Shown: positions 12,484 to 21,124, counted from the stretch's first letter. The stretch: 64,000 nt of DNA from Leptolyngbya iicbica LK (GCF_004212215.1 NZ_QVFV01000001.1:568814-632813), one strand, 5' to 3'. Notes: a model not told the origin generated them from the sequence alone. Program-made: numbers and translations.

Positions 12484-14655
12484 ATGAGCTACAAAGCCGA
12501 AAGCTTCATTCAAGACTTAGAAAAAGTCGCCGCTACGCGCCAGGAATTTGCGGGTCATTTAGCCGCGATGGCCACGACTTTAGAAGCCTCTGAACAGCTA
12601 GAAAACGCCTCTGGCAAACTCGGCCTGAGTCCCATCATTGCCGACCTCAATACGGCCAGCCAAAACCTGTCATCAGAAGTCTTTCGGCTGCTGGTGCTGG
12701 GGGATATGAAGCGGGGCAAAAGCACCTTCCTCAACGCCTTGATGGGGGAAAATCTGTTGCCCACCGACGTGAACCCCTGCACCGCTGTGCTCACGATTTT
12801 GCGCTACGGTCCCGAAAAGCGGGTGACGGTGCATTTCAATGACGATCGCACCCCCGAGACCCTTTCCTTTGACGCCTTTAAGCAGCGCTACACCATCCGT
12901 CCCGACCAGGCCAAAAAGCTGGAAGATGAGGGCACCCTCGCCTTCCCCAATGTGGACTACGCCGTGGTGGAATATCCTCTCACGCTGTTGGAAAAAGGCG
13001 TCGAAATTGTTGATAGCCCGGGTCTCAACGATACCGAAGCCCGCAACCAGCTCACCCTGGATTACGTTAACAATTGCCACGCCATTCTGTTCGTACTCAG
13101 CGCCACCCAGCAGTTCACCCTAAGCGAGCAGCGCTATCTCGACAACTACATTAAGGATCGGGGGCTGACCGTCTTTTTCCTGATCAACGCCTGGGACGAA
13201 ATCCGCAATCGCCTGGTAGACCCCGACGACGAGGCCGAATTGCAAGAGACGGAAGCCCGCGTGCGGCAGGTGTTTCGCACGAACTTGGAGCCGTATTGCC
13301 AGCTCGATGGGGAAGATCTGTATGCCGATCGCACCTTTGAAATCTCCTCACTGCCCGCCCTGCGTCAGCGGCTGAAGGGCGAGGACGGTTCCTTAGAAGG
13401 CACGGGGTTTGGCGAATTCATGCCCGCCCTCACCACATTTTTGACTAAAGAACGGGCGATCGCGGAACTGCGCCAGGCCAAACTGCTAGCCCGCCAGGCC
13501 TATCGCACCACCCATGAAGCGATCGAGCGGCGCATTCCCCTGCTGAGCCACGACATCGACGAACTGCGAGACAAGATTTGGTCCGTGCAGCCGGAGTTTG
13601 AGCAGCTGGTGGTGATTCGCGACGAATTCAAAGACGAAATCCGCGTGATTGGGGAACGCAAGGCGGGGGAAATCACCACCTCGTTTCGGGAGTTTTTAGT
13701 GGGCCTGGATGAAACCTTTGAGGCCGATTTCGTCCGCTACCAGCCCGAACTCAAGTTTTTGGACTTCCTGCGGCAGCAAAAGCGCAAGGAATTTGAAGCC
13801 GCGCTCAAAACCGCGTTCGAGCAGTATCTCATCGACAAAATCACCGCCTGGAGCAAAGATGCCCAGCGCGACATCGATCAGGCCTTTATCGAGCTGGCCC
13901 ACAGCGCCTTTAAGCATGGCGAATCTTACGGCCACCTGACGGACCAGATCAACCAGAAGCTCACCGGCCAGCGCGTGGTGAATCGGGCGCACCTCAGCCC
14001 CGAAGACAACTCTCCCGGCTGGGCCAAGTGGGCCGTGGGGCTCTATGCGCTAACCACCGGGGATGTGGGGGCGATCGCCATGGCTGGCACGGGCCTATTC
14101 AACTGGCGGCAGGTGCTCATGAATCTCGTGGGAGCCACCGCCATCACCGTGGGCTTTGCCCTGTTGACCGACATCTTCTTGGGACCGTTGGGCATGGCCC
14201 TCGCCGGACTCGGCTTGAGCAGTTGGACGACGGAACAAGCCCGCCGCAAGGTGCTCGCCACCATGAAGCAGGAACTCACCAGCCTGTTACCCCAAGTGGC
14301 TCAGGAGCAATCCTTTGTGGTGTATCAAGTGGTGAAGGAATGCTTTGAGACCTATCAGCAAGATGTGGTCAAGCGCATGAATGAAGACATCGCCGCCCGC
14401 AAGACGGAACTGAATGATCTGATAAAGCAAAAGGAAACCCACGAGATTGACCGCGAAGGCGAAATCCAGCGACTCAATCAACTGGATGATGAGGTCTTAG
14501 CGCAGTCGCACCAGGTGGCCGATGCCTATGATCAGGTGCTGGGCATTCACGTACCGGAAGTCGCCGCCGACCTGGAAGCTGAGCCGGTTGACGCGGTGCC
14601 GGAAGCCGATGAGGCGATCGCACATCAAGAGGTGCTGACTGCCACTGCGGTATAG
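12484..14655 (+). CDS. Bacterial dynamin-like GTPase
   Basis: A 723-residue large GTPase of the dynamin superfamily. The P-loop GDMKRGKS is at residues 73-80, the G2 threonine region is 'NPCTAVLT', and G3 is DSPGLNDT near 177. A long helical region follows the GTPase core. A hydrophobic paddle at about 545-585 (ITVGFALLTDIFLGPLGMALAGLGL) matches the membrane-inserting tip of BDLPs. A C-terminal coiled coil precedes an acidic tail. Such proteins bind and reshape lipid membranes on GTP hydrolysis; Nostoc BDLP is the studied example. It has no adjacent BDLP partner and appears monocistronic. Confidence 0.9.
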   Translation: MSYKAESFIQDLEKVAATRQEFAGHLAAMATTLEASEQLENASGKLGLSPIIADLNTASQNLSSEVFRLLVLGDMKRGKSTFLNALMGENLLPTDVNPCTAVLTILRYGPEKRVTVHFNDDRTPETLSFDAFKQRYTIRPDQAKKLEDEGTLAFPNVDYAVVEYPLTLLEKGVEIVDSPGLNDTEARNQLTLDYVNNCHAILFVLSATQQFTLSEQRYLDNYIKDRGLTVFFLINAWDEIRNRLVDPDDEAELQETEARVRQVFRTNLEPYCQLDGEDLYADRTFEISSLPALRQRLKGEDGSLEGTGFGEFMPALTTFLTKERAIAELRQAKLLARQAYRTTHEAIERRIPLLSHDIDELRDKIWSVQPEFEQLVVIRDEFKDEIRVIGERKAGEITTSFREFLVGLDETFEADFVRYQPELKFLDFLRQQKRKEFEAALKTAFEQYLIDKITAWSKDAQRDIDQAFIELAHSAFKHGESYGHLTDQINQKLTGQRVVNRAHLSPEDNSPGWAKWAVGLYALTTGDVGAIAMAGTGLFNWRQVLMNLVGATAITVGFALLTDIFLGPLGMALAGLGLSSWTTEQARRKVLATMKQELTSLLPQVAQEQSFVVYQVVKECFETYQQDVVKRMNEDIAARKTELNDLIKQKETHEIDREGEIQRLNQLDDEVLAQSHQVADAYDQVLGIHVPEVAADLEAEPVDAVPEADEAIAHQEVLTATAV

Positions 14656-14951: not shown

Positions 14952-15530
14952 ATGTCTGGTCTTCCCATGGTTTTGAGTCTGGATCAGGTGGAATTGACTG
15001 ATGAGCAGTTCTACCGATTGTGTGAAGCGAATCCCAACACCCCCTTAGAACGATCTGCTGCAGGAGCGTTGGTAATTATGTCGCCAGTTGGGGGAGAAAG
15101 CGGAGAACGAGAAGCTAATTTGATCACCGATTTAGCGCTCTGGAATCGACAGTCTAAATTGGGCAAAGTGTTTAGCTCGTCGACGTTGTTCAAACTGCCA
15201 GGCGGCGGCGATCGCTCGCCCGATGCGGCTTGGATAGAAAGCTCTCGGTGGGAAGCCTTATCGCCGGAAGAGAAGGCCGGATTTCCCCCGATCTGTCCTG
15301 ATTTTGTGATTGAGCTGCGGTCTAAGACGGATGCTTTGCCGCCGTTGCAGGAAAAAATGGCCGAGTATTTAGCCAGTGGTCTACGGTTGGGCTGGTTGAT
15401 TAATCCCCAGGGACAAGAAGTTGAGATTTACCGACCGGCAGCCATTGCTGAAGCAGTTCCCTTCCCGGCTCGCTTGTCTGGGGAAGAGATTTTGCCTGGA
15501 TTTGAGCTGACTTGGCCGTTGCCGGATTAG
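14952..15530 (+). CDS. Uma2 family protein (DUF820, PD-(D/E)XK-like fold)
   Basis: A 192-residue Uma2 protein. Family marks are 'ELTDEQFYRLCEANP' at the N-terminus, the 'SPVGGESGEREANLITDLALWN' helix, 'DRSPDAAWI', the nuclease-like core 'FVIELRSKTD' (E-x-K pattern) and 'LGWLINPQGQEVEIYRP'. The fold is that of restriction-type endonucleases. Cyanobacteria carry many copies, often in accessory regions, and their role is unproven. It begins the accessory stretch that runs to 21.2 kb. Two more intact Uma2 genes and one fragment occur in this window. Confidence 0.88.
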   Translation: MSGLPMVLSLDQVELTDEQFYRLCEANPNTPLERSAAGALVIMSPVGGESGEREANLITDLALWNRQSKLGKVFSSSTLFKLPGGGDRSPDAAWIESSRWEALSPEEKAGFPPICPDFVIELRSKTDALPPLQEKMAEYLASGLRLGWLINPQGQEVEIYRPAAIAEAVPFPARLSGEEILPGFELTWPLPD

Positions 15531-15871
15531 GTTAATCTTCCAGCAATTTCCTCCTCTCAATAATCGATGCAGATTGCTTGCAAACCTTCAGAAGTGGCTG
15601 GGATGATGCCGCCAAGGCTTTGAAGCCAGGGGTGAGAGTGGGCGATCTCACACTCCATTTCTGACAGTGCGATCGCGCGGGGTGGCAGGTGGAGCTTGAG
15701 GAGCAGAGGTTGGCTGTGGGGAAGTAGGGTGGGCAGTGCCCACTTGGGTCATCTCTTTTTAATTAGTTTTAATGTACTATATTTGTGTATATGTTCTCTA
15801 ATTAATTGTCTCGAACGCTGCCTGGCAGGGAAATATTTGTAGTGAAGATATGCGTTATGGAGACATGAAGG
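15531..15871. other. Intergenic region at the left border of the AT-rich TcmP island
   Basis: Composition changes sharply near 15740 from GC-rich to AT-rich. Just before that lies a perfect palindrome, GTGGGCAGTGCCCAC (15729-15743), of a kind that recurs in cyanobacterial spacers. The segment 15755-15840 is very AT-rich and probably contains the promoter. No gene is evident. Confidence 0.5.
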
Positions 15872-17257
15872 ATGGGGCGCTCTAAACTCCATTGGAGTGC
15901 TGATGGCAATCAAATGCCTATAATCAGCCCTCACACTCTAGCAAAGCATCAAATTTTGTCAGAATATATAGAACACCTTATCCTGACGCTTTACGGCAAA
16001 GTCTATCCTCGAGGAGTAGAAACTTTCACTTTAATAGACGGTTTTTGTGGCGGCGGCATCTATGAAGAAGAGGCTGCACAAAAAAAGTTGAAAGGTTCAC
16101 CGATTCTCATGATCGAAGCCGTTCGGAAAGCATTCAGGCAAGCGAAAAAGCGGCAATCCCTTAATGTCAGATATGTTTTTGTGGATGCCGGAAAAGAGCA
16201 TGTTCAATGCCTGAAAAATCATTCTATGTCCTATTGGGGATTAGAGAATTTAATAGATGGAGAAAAACACCTGACCCAAGGAGAGGAATCCACCTTAACT
16301 GAACAGTGTGAATTCATAATAGGCGATTTTGAGAAATGTAGTGATTACTGTATAACCATTGCAAGTTTACGAAAGGGGCATTCTTTTTTCTTGCTAGATC
16401 CAGCAGGTTGGGACGACGTTTCAGTAGCAACGATGAGGAAGATAAATGATACCCCGGGCTCTGAAATCTTATACACCCACATGATTGGTCAACTTAAGAG
16501 ATTTGTTATCGGCAAGTATGGTAAAAACAAAGAAAAATTCGAAAGAACACTTGAGGGAGAAGGCTACTATAAAAAATCAAATTTGGAGAGCCTAGATCGA
16601 GTTGGAGAGCAGATGTATCTCCGCAACGAAACAGCAAGATTGTTTCGTGAAAAAGGTTTTTCACATTTAAATCCACACAAGAAGCACTTAATAACTTTTG
16701 CTTTGATTCCTAGAGGCAAAACTCAAGTTTTATATTATTTGATCCATATGTCTAGGCATATAACAGCCCTTGAAGTTATCAAGGAAAGGTTTTGTGAGTC
16801 TAACAGCTTAGACTATCAATACCAGTATGAAGTTTATGGTTATGGGTTCCGCACTTTTGACATCACTAAAAGCAAAGGTCAGCTTCTATTAGAACCAAGT
16901 CTGTATGAGGAAGAATACAGTACGCTTACAATAAATGTTGATCGTGAACATAAAGATTGGCGGCTTTTCATAAAGAAATTTGACGAGCAAATCGCAGACT
17001 TGATTTATCAAAATCAAGATGGGATAACCTTTATGGAAATTTGCCAAAAAATTGGACAATTTAATCCTGCCAGTAGAAATATGTATGAGCAGTACATAAA
17101 TTTTCTTAGGGATAATGGGGATGTAGAAGTGCTGAATTCTAAAGGAGAGATCCTTACTCAGAAAACTGTTCGACTTCGTAGGCGAGATGTAATTAGGGTC
17201 TCAGGCAGGTCTTATTTTCAAGGATCTCTGCTCTATAGTAGTCGTTTCTTTAATTGA
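15872..17257 (+). CDS. tcmP: Three-Cys-motif partner protein TcmP-like
   Basis: A 461-residue protein matching the TcmP family: the N-terminus 'SPHTLAKHQILSEYIEHLI', then 'FTLIDGFCGGGIY' near residues 50-63, which looks like a Rossmann/SAM-binding motif I. 'FFLLDPAGWDDV' near 170 resembles a DPxG motif IV. A winged-helix-like C-terminus ('GITFMEICQKIG...NMYEQYINFLRDNG') follows. The family is named for regular pairing with a radical-SAM protein carrying a three-cysteine motif, and that partner begins 12 bases downstream. GGAGA precedes the start. Codon use and composition are clearly more AT-rich than the flanks, suggesting transfer. Methyltransferase-like activity is an inference. Confidence 0.85.
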   Translation: MGRSKLHWSADGNQMPIISPHTLAKHQILSEYIEHLILTLYGKVYPRGVETFTLIDGFCGGGIYEEEAAQKKLKGSPILMIEAVRKAFRQAKKRQSLNVRYVFVDAGKEHVQCLKNHSMSYWGLENLIDGEKHLTQGEESTLTEQCEFIIGDFEKCSDYCITIASLRKGHSFFLLDPAGWDDVSVATMRKINDTPGSEILYTHMIGQLKRFVIGKYGKNKEKFERTLEGEGYYKKSNLESLDRVGEQMYLRNETARLFREKGFSHLNPHKKHLITFALIPRGKTQVLYYLIHMSRHITALEVIKERFCESNSLDYQYQYEVYGYGFRTFDITKSKGQLLLEPSLYEEEYSTLTINVDREHKDWRLFIKKFDEQIADLIYQNQDGITFMEICQKIGQFNPASRNMYEQYINFLRDNGDVEVLNSKGEILTQKTVRLRRRDVIRVSGRSYFQGSLLYSSRFFN

Positions 17258-17269
17258 CTTGGAGGGTGA

Positions 17270-18268
17270 ATGGCTAATATAACTGGCCGCGAAGAAATTG
17301 TTAACCCACTTCAAAAAAGCTCCCTTAATAAGAAAGGTCTTTGTGACTATGTCATAAATGTTGCTTCAGGTTGTCTGCATGGTTGCACGTTCTGCTATGT
17401 TCCTTCAACTCCAGCAATTAGAACAAAACAAATGCAGCTTAAAAGTAAAGGAGTAAATGATCCTCAAATAGAGTGGGGAAAATATTTATTTATAAGGGAT
17501 GAGATACCGAAAAAGCTTGACAACATATTAAGTCGAAAAAAGAAATGGGTGTCAACTTTAGCTGGAAAAGGAGTTGTACTTTTGTGCTCTGGGACTGATC
17601 CCTACCAGAATCAAACAACAGCAAAAATCACTCGTGAAGTAATACAAATATTACTCAAATATGACAAGCGCGTTAGGATTTTAACCCGAAGTCCATTGTG
17701 GTTAAAAGATTTAGATCTATTAGTTCATCCGAATGTAACAGTGGGTATGAGCATTCCTGCTATTAATGATGAATTAATGAAACGTATAGAACCATTCGCT
17801 CCACCTACTTCCTTGCGTTACCAAGCGCTGTTAGAAGGGGCAGCGGCAGGTTGTCGCCTATACGCTGCTATTGCACCTACTCCGCCACAAATGGGCTTTG
17901 AGGATTTCTTGACACACCTTGGTTTGTTGATGCAAATCAAGCCAGAGGTTTTGTTCTGGGAGCCGATTAATGCAAGAGGCACGAATGGTAAAAGGATGCT
18001 TTTAGCAGGTTTAGAATTTGCCAATTCAATAATGAATAAGACTTCTTGGGCAGAAAACTTTCTCAGACAGTGGGAACAGATAGAACATGCCAGTCAAGTA
18101 TTAGGTTGTATGGATCTCCTACATATTTGGGCAGATCGCGAACTGGAAGGTGTTGTAGACAAAGATATCTTGAATTATTGGTGGTATAAACCTACTGTAG
18201 AGAATTGGGAAACGGAAGTCTTTCAATATTCTGACGAATCTCGTCCAATTCTGAAGAGAAGTAGTTAG
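17270..18268 (+). CDS. Radical SAM protein, SPL/DUF5131-like (three-Cys motif), TcmP partner
   Basis: A 332-residue protein with a CX3CX2C iron-sulfur motif (C35, C39, C42 in SGCLHGCTFCYVP), which would ligate a [4Fe-4S] cluster and cleave S-adenosylmethionine. 'CSGTDPYQNQTTAKITREVIQILLKY' and 'RILTRSPLWLKDLDLL' resemble the spore-photoproduct-lyase/Rv2578c-like and phage Gp37/Gp68 (DUF5131) radical SAM group. GGAGG at 17260-17264 precedes the start, and the gene follows tcmP after 12 bases, so the two form an operon. The substrate is unknown; nucleic acid is a guess from distant relatives. It is AT-rich like its partner. Confidence 0.85.
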   Translation: MANITGREEIVNPLQKSSLNKKGLCDYVINVASGCLHGCTFCYVPSTPAIRTKQMQLKSKGVNDPQIEWGKYLFIRDEIPKKLDNILSRKKKWVSTLAGKGVVLLCSGTDPYQNQTTAKITREVIQILLKYDKRVRILTRSPLWLKDLDLLVHPNVTVGMSIPAINDELMKRIEPFAPPTSLRYQALLEGAAAGCRLYAAIAPTPPQMGFEDFLTHLGLLMQIKPEVLFWEPINARGTNGKRMLLAGLEFANSIMNKTSWAENFLRQWEQIEHASQVLGCMDLLHIWADRELEGVVDKDILNYWWYKPTVENWETEVFQYSDESRPILKRSS

Positions 18269-18485
18269 TTTTGGTATTCAAGCTTTATAAAGTTTGGATT
18301 GTTTTTTCTTCAAGGACATAGATTTATTTAAAGCTTAATAGCAATATGATTAGCACCATTTCTGGCGCAAGTCAGTAAATCAACAAATACAATCGCATGG
18401 CGCGATTCACTTCAGAGGATGATTGGGCAGTTTGCAGGCGACCACCATTCGTTACGCACAGTAATCGAGACGAGATGCTTCTCCA
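18269..18485. other. Right border of the AT-rich island, no gene
   Basis: The AT-rich composition continues to about 18380 and then returns to the local GC-rich background. No gene, terminator or clear repeat is visible. The Uma2 fragment starts at 18486. Confidence 0.45.
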
Positions 18486-18780
18486 TTAAACACTCTCGCG
18501 AGGCTTCAAGAGTTGGGCAACATTGAGCGACAGTGCTGGAAATTGGGGCGAGGTGAGGGTGTCGCTGCCCGTGAGTTCCTGCGCCTCATACAGCCCATCC
18601 ACCAGCGTCAACACCGTCACCAGTCGCGGCTGGGGTCAATAATCCAATACTCCCCAATGCCCCGTGTCGCATACTCCGATCGCTTATAGCGATAATCGCG
18701 ATCCTCATTCACCTTTCCCGGCGACACCACCTCCACCACCAACAGCGGCGCAGGCATCTCCTCCGCGATCGTGCTGCGGC
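18486..18780 (-). pseudogene. Uma2 3' fragment (displaced duplicate)
   Basis: About 290 bases match the 3' half of the intact Uma2 gene at 19760-20329 in the same orientation, at roughly 85-90% identity by eye. A one-base deletion near 18630 (CACCAGTCGC here, CACCCGATCGC in the intact gene) breaks the frame. Homology stops abruptly at about 18780. A stop lies in frame at 18486. It is a dead fragment. The intact copy lies beyond the DUF433/DUF5615 pair. Confidence 0.88.
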
Positions 18781-19095
18781 CCTTTGTGAGATTGCTGATT
18801 GCCCCTCGGAGATATTAGCGCCAACGCGATGGAGGGTCAGGGTGATTGTCGTTAACCATAGTTTGAAATTAGAACTCGGCAGAGCGATCGCTTTTCAGGG
18901 CTGGTGTAAAACGATGGGAGTAGAGTGAGATCGCTTCCACCCCTACTTTTACACCGAAACTCGGTAGCGCGGTCTTGCTATTAGGCCCGAGACGAAAAGC
19001 TTGTAGCAACTGAAGCCAACCAAAAATTTACGTTCTCCGGTCGGCATTAAGCCTGCGAGTGCCACAATAGATTTAAGCGATCGGCAAGACCCATC
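18781..19095. repeat. Spacer with left copy of a 42-base direct repeat flanking the toxin-antitoxin pair
   Basis: Bases 18884-18925 (gcgatcgcttttcagggctgg...gatgggag) recur at 19705-19745 with five or six differences. The two copies bracket the DUF433/DUF5615 gene pair in direct orientation. The rest of this spacer has no gene; it presumably contains the toxin-antitoxin promoter. Confidence 0.75.
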
Positions 19096-19344
19096 ATGAC
19101 CCGCGAAGAACTCCTATCTCGCATTTCCATTAACCCCAACATTTGCTTTGGCAAGCCCTGCATCCGGGGACATCGGATTTGGGCATCGCTGATTTTAGAC
19201 TTTCTCGCTAGCGGCACCGCAATCGCCGAAATCTTAGCCGACTATCCCGAACTCGAAGAAGCGGATATCTACGCCTGCCTCGCCTATGGCGCAGAAATGA
19301 GCCGCGAGCGATACCTGGATATTCCGCTAGAGGCTAGCGCGTGA
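19096..19344 (+). CDS. DUF433 antitoxin (VapB45-like)
   Basis: An 82-residue DUF433 protein: 'ISINPNICFGKPCIRGHRIWASLILDFLASG' is the family hallmark and 'ILADYPELEEADIYACLAYGAE' the second conserved block, a winged-helix DNA-binding fold. It overlaps the downstream DUF5615 gene by GTGA, the usual arrangement of this VapBC45-type module. The protein should neutralise the toxin and repress the operon. Direct repeats flank the pair. Confidence 0.92.
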   Translation: MTREELLSRISINPNICFGKPCIRGHRIWASLILDFLASGTAIAEILADYPELEEADIYACLAYGAEMSRERYLDIPLEASA

Positions 19345-19703
19345 GGCTCAAGCTAGATGAAAACATTGGCCAACGAGGAGTGACCCTGCTCAAGCAAGCC
19401 GGACACGACGTAGCAACAGTCGTCGAACAAGGATTAGCGTCTACCCCTGACGACAACTTGATTGAAGTTTGTCGGCAAGAGCAGCGTTGTCTGGTATCGC
19501 TCGACCTTGATTTTAGGTGTCTCCTGCGGTTCAAGCCTGCCGATTACTGCGGCATTGCCATTCTCCGGTTGCCCCCGCGTCCCGAGCCTCAAGATTTACT
19601 GGATACCTTGAAAACGTTGATAGGTGGCCTAGAGCGCGAGAAAATCACGGGCAAACTGTGGACAGTCCAGAAAGGCAGAATTCGCATTTATCAAGAAGAG
19701 TAG
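19341..19703 (+). CDS. DUF5615 PIN-like toxin (VapC45-like)
   Basis: A 120-residue PIN-like protein starting at the GTG at 19341 that overlaps the antitoxin stop. The acidic active-site residues are visible in 'LKLDENI', 'STPDDNLIEVC' and 'VSLDLDFR', matching the Mut7-C/PIN-like DUF5615 family. It is a predicted RNase toxin neutralised by the DUF433 protein. Length is normal and no disruption is visible, so the module looks intact. Confidence 0.9.
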   Translation: MRLKLDENIGQRGVTLLKQAGHDVATVVEQGLASTPDDNLIEVCRQEQRCLVSLDLDFRCLLRFKPADYCGIAILRLPPRPEPQDLLDTLKTLIGGLEREKITGKLWTVQKGRIRIYQEE

Positions 19704-19759: not shown

Positions 19760-20329
19760 TCACGACTCCCCACGCGGATTCAAGATCTGGGCAACATCAA
19801 GCGACAATCCTGGAAATTGGGGCGAGGTGAGCGTGTCACTGACCATTAATTCCTGTGCCTCATACAGCCCATCCACCAGCGTCAAAACCGTCACCCGATC
19901 GCGGCTGGGGTCAACAATCCAATACTCGCCAATGCGCCGCGCCGCATACTGCGATCGCTTGTAGCGATAATCGCGATCCTCATTTACCTTCCCCGGCGAC
20001 ACCACCTCCACCACCAACAGCGGCGCAGGCATCTCCTCCGTAATGGTGCTACGAGATTGACCTTGCAGCGCTAAAACCAGATCCTCTCCCAACACCATCA
20101 AGTCGGGAATTCGCACGCGCCCCGACACCACCAATTCCGTTCGCCCTTGACGTACCCAGTCAAAGGGAAATCGCCGCAACAGCTGAGCCACCAAATAGCT
20201 AGCAATCACGACATTTTCTTCGCTCTCGGGTGGCAGCTCAACAATTTCTCCATCCACAAACTCGCAGCGACTTTCCGGGCCAGCTTCCAGGCTCAGAAAA
20301 TCCGCCAGCGTCAATTTCGTAGTGAGCAT
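19760..20329 (-). CDS. Uma2 family protein (DUF820)
   Basis: A 189-residue Uma2 protein with 'LTLADFLSLEAGPESRCEFVDGEIVEL', the 'RVRIPDLMVL' block, the core 'PLLVVEVVSPGK' and 'GEYWIVDPSRDRVTVLTLVDGLYEA'. The PD-(D/E)XK-like fold suggests a nuclease ancestor. It differs clearly from the Uma2 proteins at 14.9 and 29.3 kb. Its 3' half has a decayed duplicate at 18486-18780. It lies between two toxin-antitoxin modules and probably has its own promoter in 20330-20456. Confidence 0.88.
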   Translation of the reverse strand: MLTTKLTLADFLSLEAGPESRCEFVDGEIVELPPESEENVVIASYLVAQLLRRFPFDWVRQGRTELVVSGRVRIPDLMVLGEDLVLALQGQSRSTITEEMPAPLLVVEVVSPGKVNEDRDYRYKRSQYAARRIGEYWIVDPSRDRVTVLTLVDGLYEAQELMVSDTLTSPQFPGLSLDVAQILNPRGES

Positions 20330-20456: not shown

Positions 20457-20804
20457 TTACTCCGAACTCTCTGCAAACTGCTGCGCCAGGCTCAGCAGTG
20501 CTGGCTTTATGACCGGCAGATCACGCTCGATCACCGACCAAACCTCATTCATATCCACGCTCAAATAATCGTGAATGAGCACATCACGAAAGCCTGCCAT
20601 TTGCCGCCAGGGAATCTCTGCATGATCCCGCTTCACTGTTTCTGAAAGTCGTTTAGTGGCCTCACCGATAATCTCAAAATTCCGAATGACCGCATCCTGC
20701 ATCATGGAATTGTCCATAAAAGCGGCCTTGCCCTCAGTCACATAGCTCTCAATGCGCTGAATGCATTCCAAAATATTGCTGAGATACAGTCCATCGTCTC
20801 TCAT
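20457..20804 (-). CDS. hepT: HepT-like HEPN ribonuclease toxin
   Basis: A 115-residue HEPN-domain protein (DUF86). The active site RX4HXY is present as RDVLIHDY, and the 'FEIIGEATKRLSETVKRDHAEIPWRQMAGFRDVLIH' block is diagnostic. HEPN toxins cleave RNA. In the studied HepT/MntA systems the partner nucleotidyltransferase adds AMP to the tyrosine of this motif and so inactivates the toxin. Its ATG overlaps the stop of the upstream MntA gene (ATGA). The pair sits directly downstream of glmS. Confidence 0.92.
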   Translation of the reverse strand: MRDDGLYLSNILECIQRIESYVTEGKAAFMDNSMMQDAVIRNFEIIGEATKRLSETVKRDHAEIPWRQMAGFRDVLIHDYLSVDMNEVWSVIERDLPVIKPALLSLAQQFAESSE

Positions 20805-21124
20805 AGTCGAACGGCATCCTGCATGACCCGATCTTTGATCCGTGCGTGCAAAGCTGACGGCGTCGCCACATCCACCGATCGCCCCAACAAATCGGCCAAG
20901 TCTTGCATCAGACCAATATGATCCAGCAGACTTCGCCCCGGTTCCAGGTCTACCAGCAGGTCAATATCACTCTCGGCATTGGCTTCACCTCGCGCCACTG
21001 AGCCAAACACCCGAATATTACTGGCGCCATACTTCTCCGCAATTTCGAGAATCTTGGGCTTTTGGCTTTGTAGCGTTTCCAACAGCGTCGTCATCAGCTG
21101 AAACCCACTAACATGCAACAGCAT
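20801..21124 (-). CDS. mntA: MntA-like minimal nucleotidyltransferase antitoxin
   Basis: About 107 residues; the ATG ten residues in (21094, MTTLLETL) is an equally good start and fits family length better. The catalytic motif is GSVARGEANAESDIDLLVDLE: GS, then DxD on adjacent strand residues. This minimal nucleotidyltransferase is expected to AMPylate the adjacent HEPN toxin. The pair is bracketed by the intact glmS end and a glmS 3' remnant, which suggests the module arrived as a unit. Confidence 0.92.
   Translation of the reverse strand: MLLHVSGFQLMTTLLETLQSQKPKILEIAEKYGASNIRVFGSVARGEANAESDIDLLVDLEPGRSLLDHIGLMQDLADLLGRSVDVATPSALHARIKDRVMQDAVRL

Follow-up and report, generated by a model that had tools for sequence, protein, structure and literature searches.

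Gene organization and composition of the locus

The 64,000-nucleotide stretch of Leptolyngbya iicbica LK DNA analyzed here (the window) belongs to a 5.7-Mb cyanobacterial genome that carries a single copy of the TcmP gene. This gene occupies positions 15872-17257 of the forward strand and encodes a protein of 461 amino acids matching the TIGR04474 profile (1.5e-36). It is followed on the same strand, at 17270-18268, by a gene encoding a 332-residue protein that matches Pfam Radical_SAM (8e-9), hereafter the rSAM protein. The original prediction, made from the sequence alone, described two co-directional genes 12 bases apart, with the motifs DGFCGGG and DPAG in the first product and SGCLHGCTFC in the second. 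All of these features were recovered, the motifs lying at residues 56-62 and 176-179 of TcmP and around C35, C39 and C42 of the rSAM protein, respectively. Within the intergenic gap, a Shine-Dalgarno-like GGAGG (17261-17265, forward strand) located just upstream of the rSAM ATG suggests that translation of the two genes may be coupled.

No other 2.4 kb of the window has a GC content as low as that of the pair. GC content is 38.6% in the TcmP gene and 39.5% in the rSAM gene versus 52-57% in genes nearby, in agreement with the AT richness relative to the flanks that had been pointed out initially, and third-position GC amounts to 35.5% and 32.1%, respectively. The AT-rich segment enclosing the pair, which we refer to as the cargo segment (15726-18406, no strand assigned, GC 38.7%), is delimited by the ends of blastn matches to two genomes of the same genus (L134 and L135), with borders that remain uncertain within 15617-15725 on the left and 18407-18495 on the right. 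To its left lies a Uma2 gene (14952-15530, forward strand; Pfam Uma2, 1.3e-43) with same-position counterparts in these two genomes. To its right lies a 3' fragment of a Uma2 gene (18407-18784, reverse strand), which matches the intact right-hand Uma2 region of both.

A DUF433 and DUF5615/PIN-like gene pair (19096-19703, forward strand) separates this fragment from an intact right-hand Uma2 gene recognized by Pfam (19760-20329, reverse strand), an arrangement suggestive of a duplicated right-hand Uma2 flanking a toxin-antitoxin module. The adjoining region at 20457-21124 (reverse strand) resembles a nucleotidyltransferase/HEPN toxin-antitoxin pair of the MntA-HepT type. Upstream, 12484-14655 (forward strand) encodes a bacterial dynamin-like protein with a weak PADLOC match to LeoA-like proteins, of which no close copy was found in the same-genus genomes searched. 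The Uma2 and toxin-antitoxin genes had been presented as the usual company of defense or modification systems. Uma2 and DUF433/DUF5615 neighbors are indeed present, but such company is weak evidence by itself because Uma2-like sequences are very common in this cyanobacterial family.

TcmP and its predicted active site

Assignment of the first gene to the TcmP family was confirmed by its TIGR04474 score of 126.7 bits over residues 20-305, for a curated cut-off of 53, and the protein is also homologous to component A of the PADLOC candidate system PDC-M30 (PDC-M30A; 2.8e-14). It comprises a class I methyltransferase-like domain (residues ~15-310) and a C-terminal winged helix-turn-helix (wHTH) domain (residues ~361-443). 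The window protein matches GMT-wHTH only weakly (0.0075); of 55 relatives, 28 do so at E<=0.05, the best value being 5.5e-10. An AlphaFold2 model built from a 55-sequence alignment (pLDDT 84) adopts a class I methyltransferase fold, for which the best PDB match is RlmJ (Foldseek, E 1e-5), the 23S rRNA m6A2030 methyltransferase. RsmD/RlmJ were also returned, weakly, by an independent profile search of PDB sequences, and other RNA methyltransferases such as TYW4 and CmoA are prominent among the fold matches. Comparison with a viral fold library was uninformative. The alignments used for structure prediction of TcmP, like those of the rSAM protein, exclude proteins from plasmid records.

TcmP and RlmJ share only 9-10% identity, a sequence match that is not significant, and hhalign against a single RlmJ sequence aligned motif I only (P 0.005). 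Nevertheless, TcmP possesses the DxxxGxG motif I, the GS motif and the acidic motif II residue of RlmJ, as well as counterparts of its catalytic aspartate and motif X lysine. Among the 55 sequences, the motif I residues D56, G60 and G62 are each conserved in 54, K25 in 53, and G75-S76, an acidic residue at position 105 and D176 in all. Based on motif order and fold match rather than on coordinate superposition, K25, S76, D105 and D176 correspond to K18, S100, E118 and D164 of RlmJ. In RlmJ, the K18A and D164A substitutions abolish activity, whereas S100 and E118 contact AdoMet (PMC3814359). RlmJ differs in that it bears an inserted helical subdomain, at a place where motif I and the GS motif of TcmP are only ~14 residues apart, and in that it lacks the C-terminal wHTH. 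Furthermore, motif IV reads DPAG in the window protein and DPFG in most relatives instead of the DPPY of RlmJ, and thereby departs from the D-P-P-[YF] pattern of RlmJ-type m6A methyltransferases; the methylated atom is uncertain for this reason.

We propose that TcmP would bind SAM and methylate an exocyclic base amine, most likely N6 of adenine, by an RlmJ-like mechanism. K25 and D176 would form the catalytic pair, S76 and D105 would hold the cofactor, and the C-terminal winged helix would grip the nucleic acid.

The radical-SAM partner

The second gene product belongs to the radical-SAM superfamily, as anticipated: it scores 36.3 bits against Pfam Radical_SAM (cut-off 29.5) and carries a CX3CX2C motif at residues 35-42, whose three cysteines are invariant in 67 sequences. 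By contrast, the gene does not encode DUF5131, the standard TcmP partner with which it had been associated, and represents a different rSAM family. A PADLOC scan of the window rSAM protein returned no match, including to PDC-M30B and PDC-M41B, whereas true DUF5131 proteins match PDC-M30B at 1e-54 to 1e-115. Together with the Pfam scans and an hhalign P of only 0.02 between DUF5131 and the window rSAM family, this rules out a standard TcmP-DUF5131 pair. The best NCBIfam matches are all below threshold. PA0069 and Rv2578c are the nearest named rSAM families by sequence and share the TDPYQ motif, but their scores (76 and 46 bits) fall far under the cut-offs of 360 and 430; the third is protein B of the "radical SAM mobile pair" (TIGR04470).

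The AlphaFold2 model of the rSAM protein (pLDDT 91.6) has spore photoproduct lyase (SPL; PDB 4fhc/4fhg) as its best PDB match (Foldseek E 5e-8, TM 0.58). The two proteins align collinearly by hhalign (P 4.6e-5) and have CX3CX2C in common, but they are only ~12-14% identical, and the window protein is partnered with a methyltransferase-like protein. Its scores lie below the SPL family cut-offs of both TIGR04070 (10.5 versus 400 bits) and PF20903 (12.8 versus 27 bits). Taken together, an RlmJ-nearest TcmP and an SPL-nearest partner support nucleic-acid modification, as first hypothesized, as the likely chemistry.

The hhalign register equates residue 155 of the window protein with residue 113 of the SPL fragment, whose sequence was read from the PDB match. 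Its gapless extension equates residue 106 with fragment residue 64 and places C106 on C140, the H-donor of SPL; scored by itself, this register ranks only third of ~275 (z 3.0). A MAFFT alignment of the rSAM proteins with SPL misplaced the C140 strand and was discarded in favor of the hhalign register. C106 is therewith a suggestive candidate for the counterpart of C140. Position 106 is a cysteine in all 41 cyanobacterial members and a serine in all 26 haloarchaeal members, 24 of which have a cysteine at position 111 of the same loop. Glycine replaces it in PA0069 and Rv2578c, the position being Gly or Ser across these two families, mobile pair protein B and a virus homolog. The archaeal Acidianus two-tailed virus encodes a homolog, ORF301 (L153:2369-3274), that is ~31% identical and has a serine there. 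The rSAM protein would generate a 5'-deoxyadenosyl radical and take a hydrogen from the base or sugar of the substrate of TcmP within an SPL-like barrel, a cysteine near C106 being a possible H-donor.

The tRNA and ribosomal methylthiotransferases MiaB, RimO and MtaB also figure among the rSAM fold matches. Along with RlmJ, TYW4, CmoA and other RNA methyltransferases on the TcmP side, they would suit a pair modifying host rRNA or tRNA, thereby protecting translation against ribosome- or tRNA-targeting toxins or antibiotics that invaders or competitors carry. We consider this scenario unlikely given that the top rSAM match, SPL, is a DNA enzyme, that TcmP has a wHTH in the stead of the helical subdomain of RlmJ, and that a DNA N6-methylase replaces TcmP as partner in one of the haloarchaeal loci described below.

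Association of the two genes across genomes

A scan of 84,980 genomes returned 61 loci encoding this rSAM protein, all in Cyanobacteria and Halobacteria, a host range that is partly by construction since the scan motifs were derived from these two groups and more distant hosts could be missed. The distribution is that of an accessory trait, the pair being carried by 11 of 386 cyanobacterial genomes. Counting the scan, the window and added records, a TcmP gene lies directly beside the rSAM gene in 57 loci, at a median distance of 63 nt and a maximum of 378. In cyanobacteria, the genes are divergent in 23 loci and co-directional in 19, while haloarchaeal loci include 8 convergent pairs, 4 co-directional pairs with TcmP first, 2 with rSAM first and 1 divergent pair. 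Adjacency maintained through four rearranged gene orders argues for a joint function, and the coupling of TcmP with the rSAM protein has probably been selected rather than merely inherited as a gene order. Protein distances of the two partners are also correlated, both overall (Mantel rho 0.51, p 0.001) and among the long cyanobacterial TcmPs (0.53, p 0.001).

The two groups of hosts share habitats of strong light, which, with SPL as the best fold match and a cysteine invariant among cyanobacterial members at the position of C140, could point to the repair of solar damage, the rSAM protein reversing a DNA photoproduct and TcmP acting as an accessory or recruiting factor. Yet this host range is in part imposed by the scan motifs, the C106 register ranks only third, and haloarchaeal members have a serine at 106, with the cysteine at 111 in most of them. 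A sparse and mobile distribution that extends to plasmids is poorly compatible with such a function, which would also leave the methyltransferase without a role. We regard solar-damage repair as improbable, the least credible of the readings considered here.

A few loci encode the rSAM protein without TcmP. In Halorientalis (L074:8934-11011), the start of the rSAM gene is overlapped by an Eco57I/N6-adenine methylase gene. The neighbor is a TIGR00027 methyltransferase in a second locus (L023) and a NucS-like nuclease matching PADLOC PDC-S11 in a third (L068).

Two other arrangements were observed. A contig classified as viral and devoid of TcmP (L148:562-9437; IMGVR_UViG_3300039308_000034) encodes an rSAM protein at 57% identity, adjoining two SGGKDS (DndC/PAPS-reductase-like) genes and an N6-methylase-like gene. 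Many haloarchaeal loci (L004, L005, L059-L073) contain two rSAM copies per TcmP, one or both of which bear an N-terminal CxxC...CxxC zinc-ribbon-like extension.

A slot of variable content and other genomic settings

In the two same-genus genomes, the flanking Uma2 genes are retained at 84-86% DNA identity (85-86% for the left Uma2) and the cargo segment is absent. In its place, one genome has genes for a TIR-domain protein and an FGE-sulfatase-like protein (L134:8129-9475, GC 40%) and the other a gene for a 911-residue NACHT-GUN4 protein (L135:1229-3964, GC 49%); in the window genome, the same slot holds the TcmP-rSAM pair (GC 39%). Genes of the TIR and NACHT kinds are characteristic of conflict systems in prokaryotes. 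The evidence for slot exchange comes from two genomes and was obtained with the Uma2 flanks, the dynamin gene being unsuitable as an empty-site marker since synteny with relatives is lost in the left region.

A second variable site lies downstream of pntB in Nostocaceae (L157-L176), where the pair is present in some genomes, adjoining pntB in several Nostoc genomes. Toxin-antitoxin or other genes occupy the site in 20 sampled relatives without the pair; it is rich in toxin-antitoxin modules, and an uncharacterized protein of 245 amino acids is an alternative occupant to the pair. Elsewhere, a pair on a Nostoc plasmid lies near the BREX genes BrxA, BrxL and PglZ. In Haladaptatus, genes for a helicase and a DUF1156 protein are found close to a pair.

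The defense setting put forward in the original prediction is thus supported at this locus, where the slot is exchanged with TIR and FGE or NACHT genes, but not as a general rule: a PADLOC and Pfam comparison of the 118 nearest neighbors of cyanobacterial pairs with 118 random genes of related genomes revealed no excess of defense genes. Because this coarse test reports recurrent families only and conflict genes also abound in the genomes used as control, it neither establishes nor rules out a role in defense.

Many pairs are borne by plasmids and lie near integrases, transposases and toxin-antitoxin genes, as might be expected if they served the maintenance of mobile elements, by modifying the element's own DNA to evade host restriction or to outcompete other elements. 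Against this stand the chromosomal copies retained beside pntB in several Nostoc genomes, and the fact that no TcmP was found in the phage records of the annotated collection. Such element maintenance or counter-defense seems to us quite unlikely.

Relation to known two-gene modules

TcmP owes its name to the DUF5131 "three-Cys" protein, from which the window rSAM protein differs. PADLOC candidates PDC-M30 and PDC-M41, which combine TcmP with DUF5131 ("phage Gp37/Gp68"), resemble the pair described here in their homologous A component, PDC-M41A being matched by a haloarchaeal TcmP, and in their organization as two-gene modules of a methyltransferase-like and an Fe-S or rSAM-like protein in mobile or defense surroundings. 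They differ in component B, a DUF5131 protein with CX6CX2C instead of CX3CX2C. Among 100 P. aeruginosa strains, 32 have a predicted PDC-M30, and 68.8% of these 32 were resistant to phage, a correlation only (PMC10855318). The literature found on TcmP, DUF5131 and the mobile pair consists of passing mentions that report neither function nor experiment.

The mobile pair provides a second point of comparison. Its protein B and the window rSAM protein are homologs along their length (hhalign E 5.5e-20), and its protein A is a relative of DUF5131 (hhalign E 2.7e-16). However, the window protein scores 43 bits for a TIGR04470 cut-off of 410, and its partner is TcmP instead of protein A. All three pairwise combinations therefore occur, namely TcmP with DUF5131, DUF5131-like A with rSAM-like B, and TcmP with rSAM. 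A triangle closed in this manner hints at components that can be exchanged within a single type of system, and the window pair is best read as a partner-swapped variant of PDC-M30 and PDC-M41.

Concluding remarks

The pair could tentatively be a two-enzyme nucleic-acid modification module, carried as accessory cargo of a defense type against invaders, a proposal to which we assign a little less than an even chance. It builds on the membership of TcmP in its family, the predicted folds of both proteins, the conservation of their residues, their adjacency despite reordering and the exchange of the slot with TIR and NACHT genes; from these we infer the use of SAM, methylation itself, a substrate common to both enzymes and the defense role. 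Nucleic acid marked or damaged by the two enzymes would impede the invader or, alternatively, would label self against another system. The methylase swap in Halorientalis, the SGGKDS neighbors on the virus-classified contig, the surroundings of the Nostoc plasmid and Haladaptatus pairs and the homology of TcmP to PDC-M30A count in favor of such a module. The absence of a nuclease from the pair, its position beside pntB in several Nostoc genomes, the coarse neighbor comparison and the divergent motif IV count against it.

A broader and more doubtful proposition is that TcmP, DUF5131 and the SPL-like rSAM protein are interchangeable within a single unrecognized class of two-enzyme immune systems, in which DNA or RNA would receive a modification that combines a methyl group with a change made by radical chemistry. 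The window would then represent its cyanobacterial and haloarchaeal TcmP-SPL form, with a chemistry new among defense systems.

TcmP proteins are widespread under a name that merely records their neighbor. A predicted methyltransferase fold, RlmJ-like residues and an SPL-like partner now provide TcmP with a specific chemical hypothesis that is open to testing. Known radical-SAM defense enzymes are the prokaryotic viperins, which act on nucleotides. If the pair does confer immunity, the modification of nucleic acid by a radical-SAM enzyme would add a new chemistry to defense.
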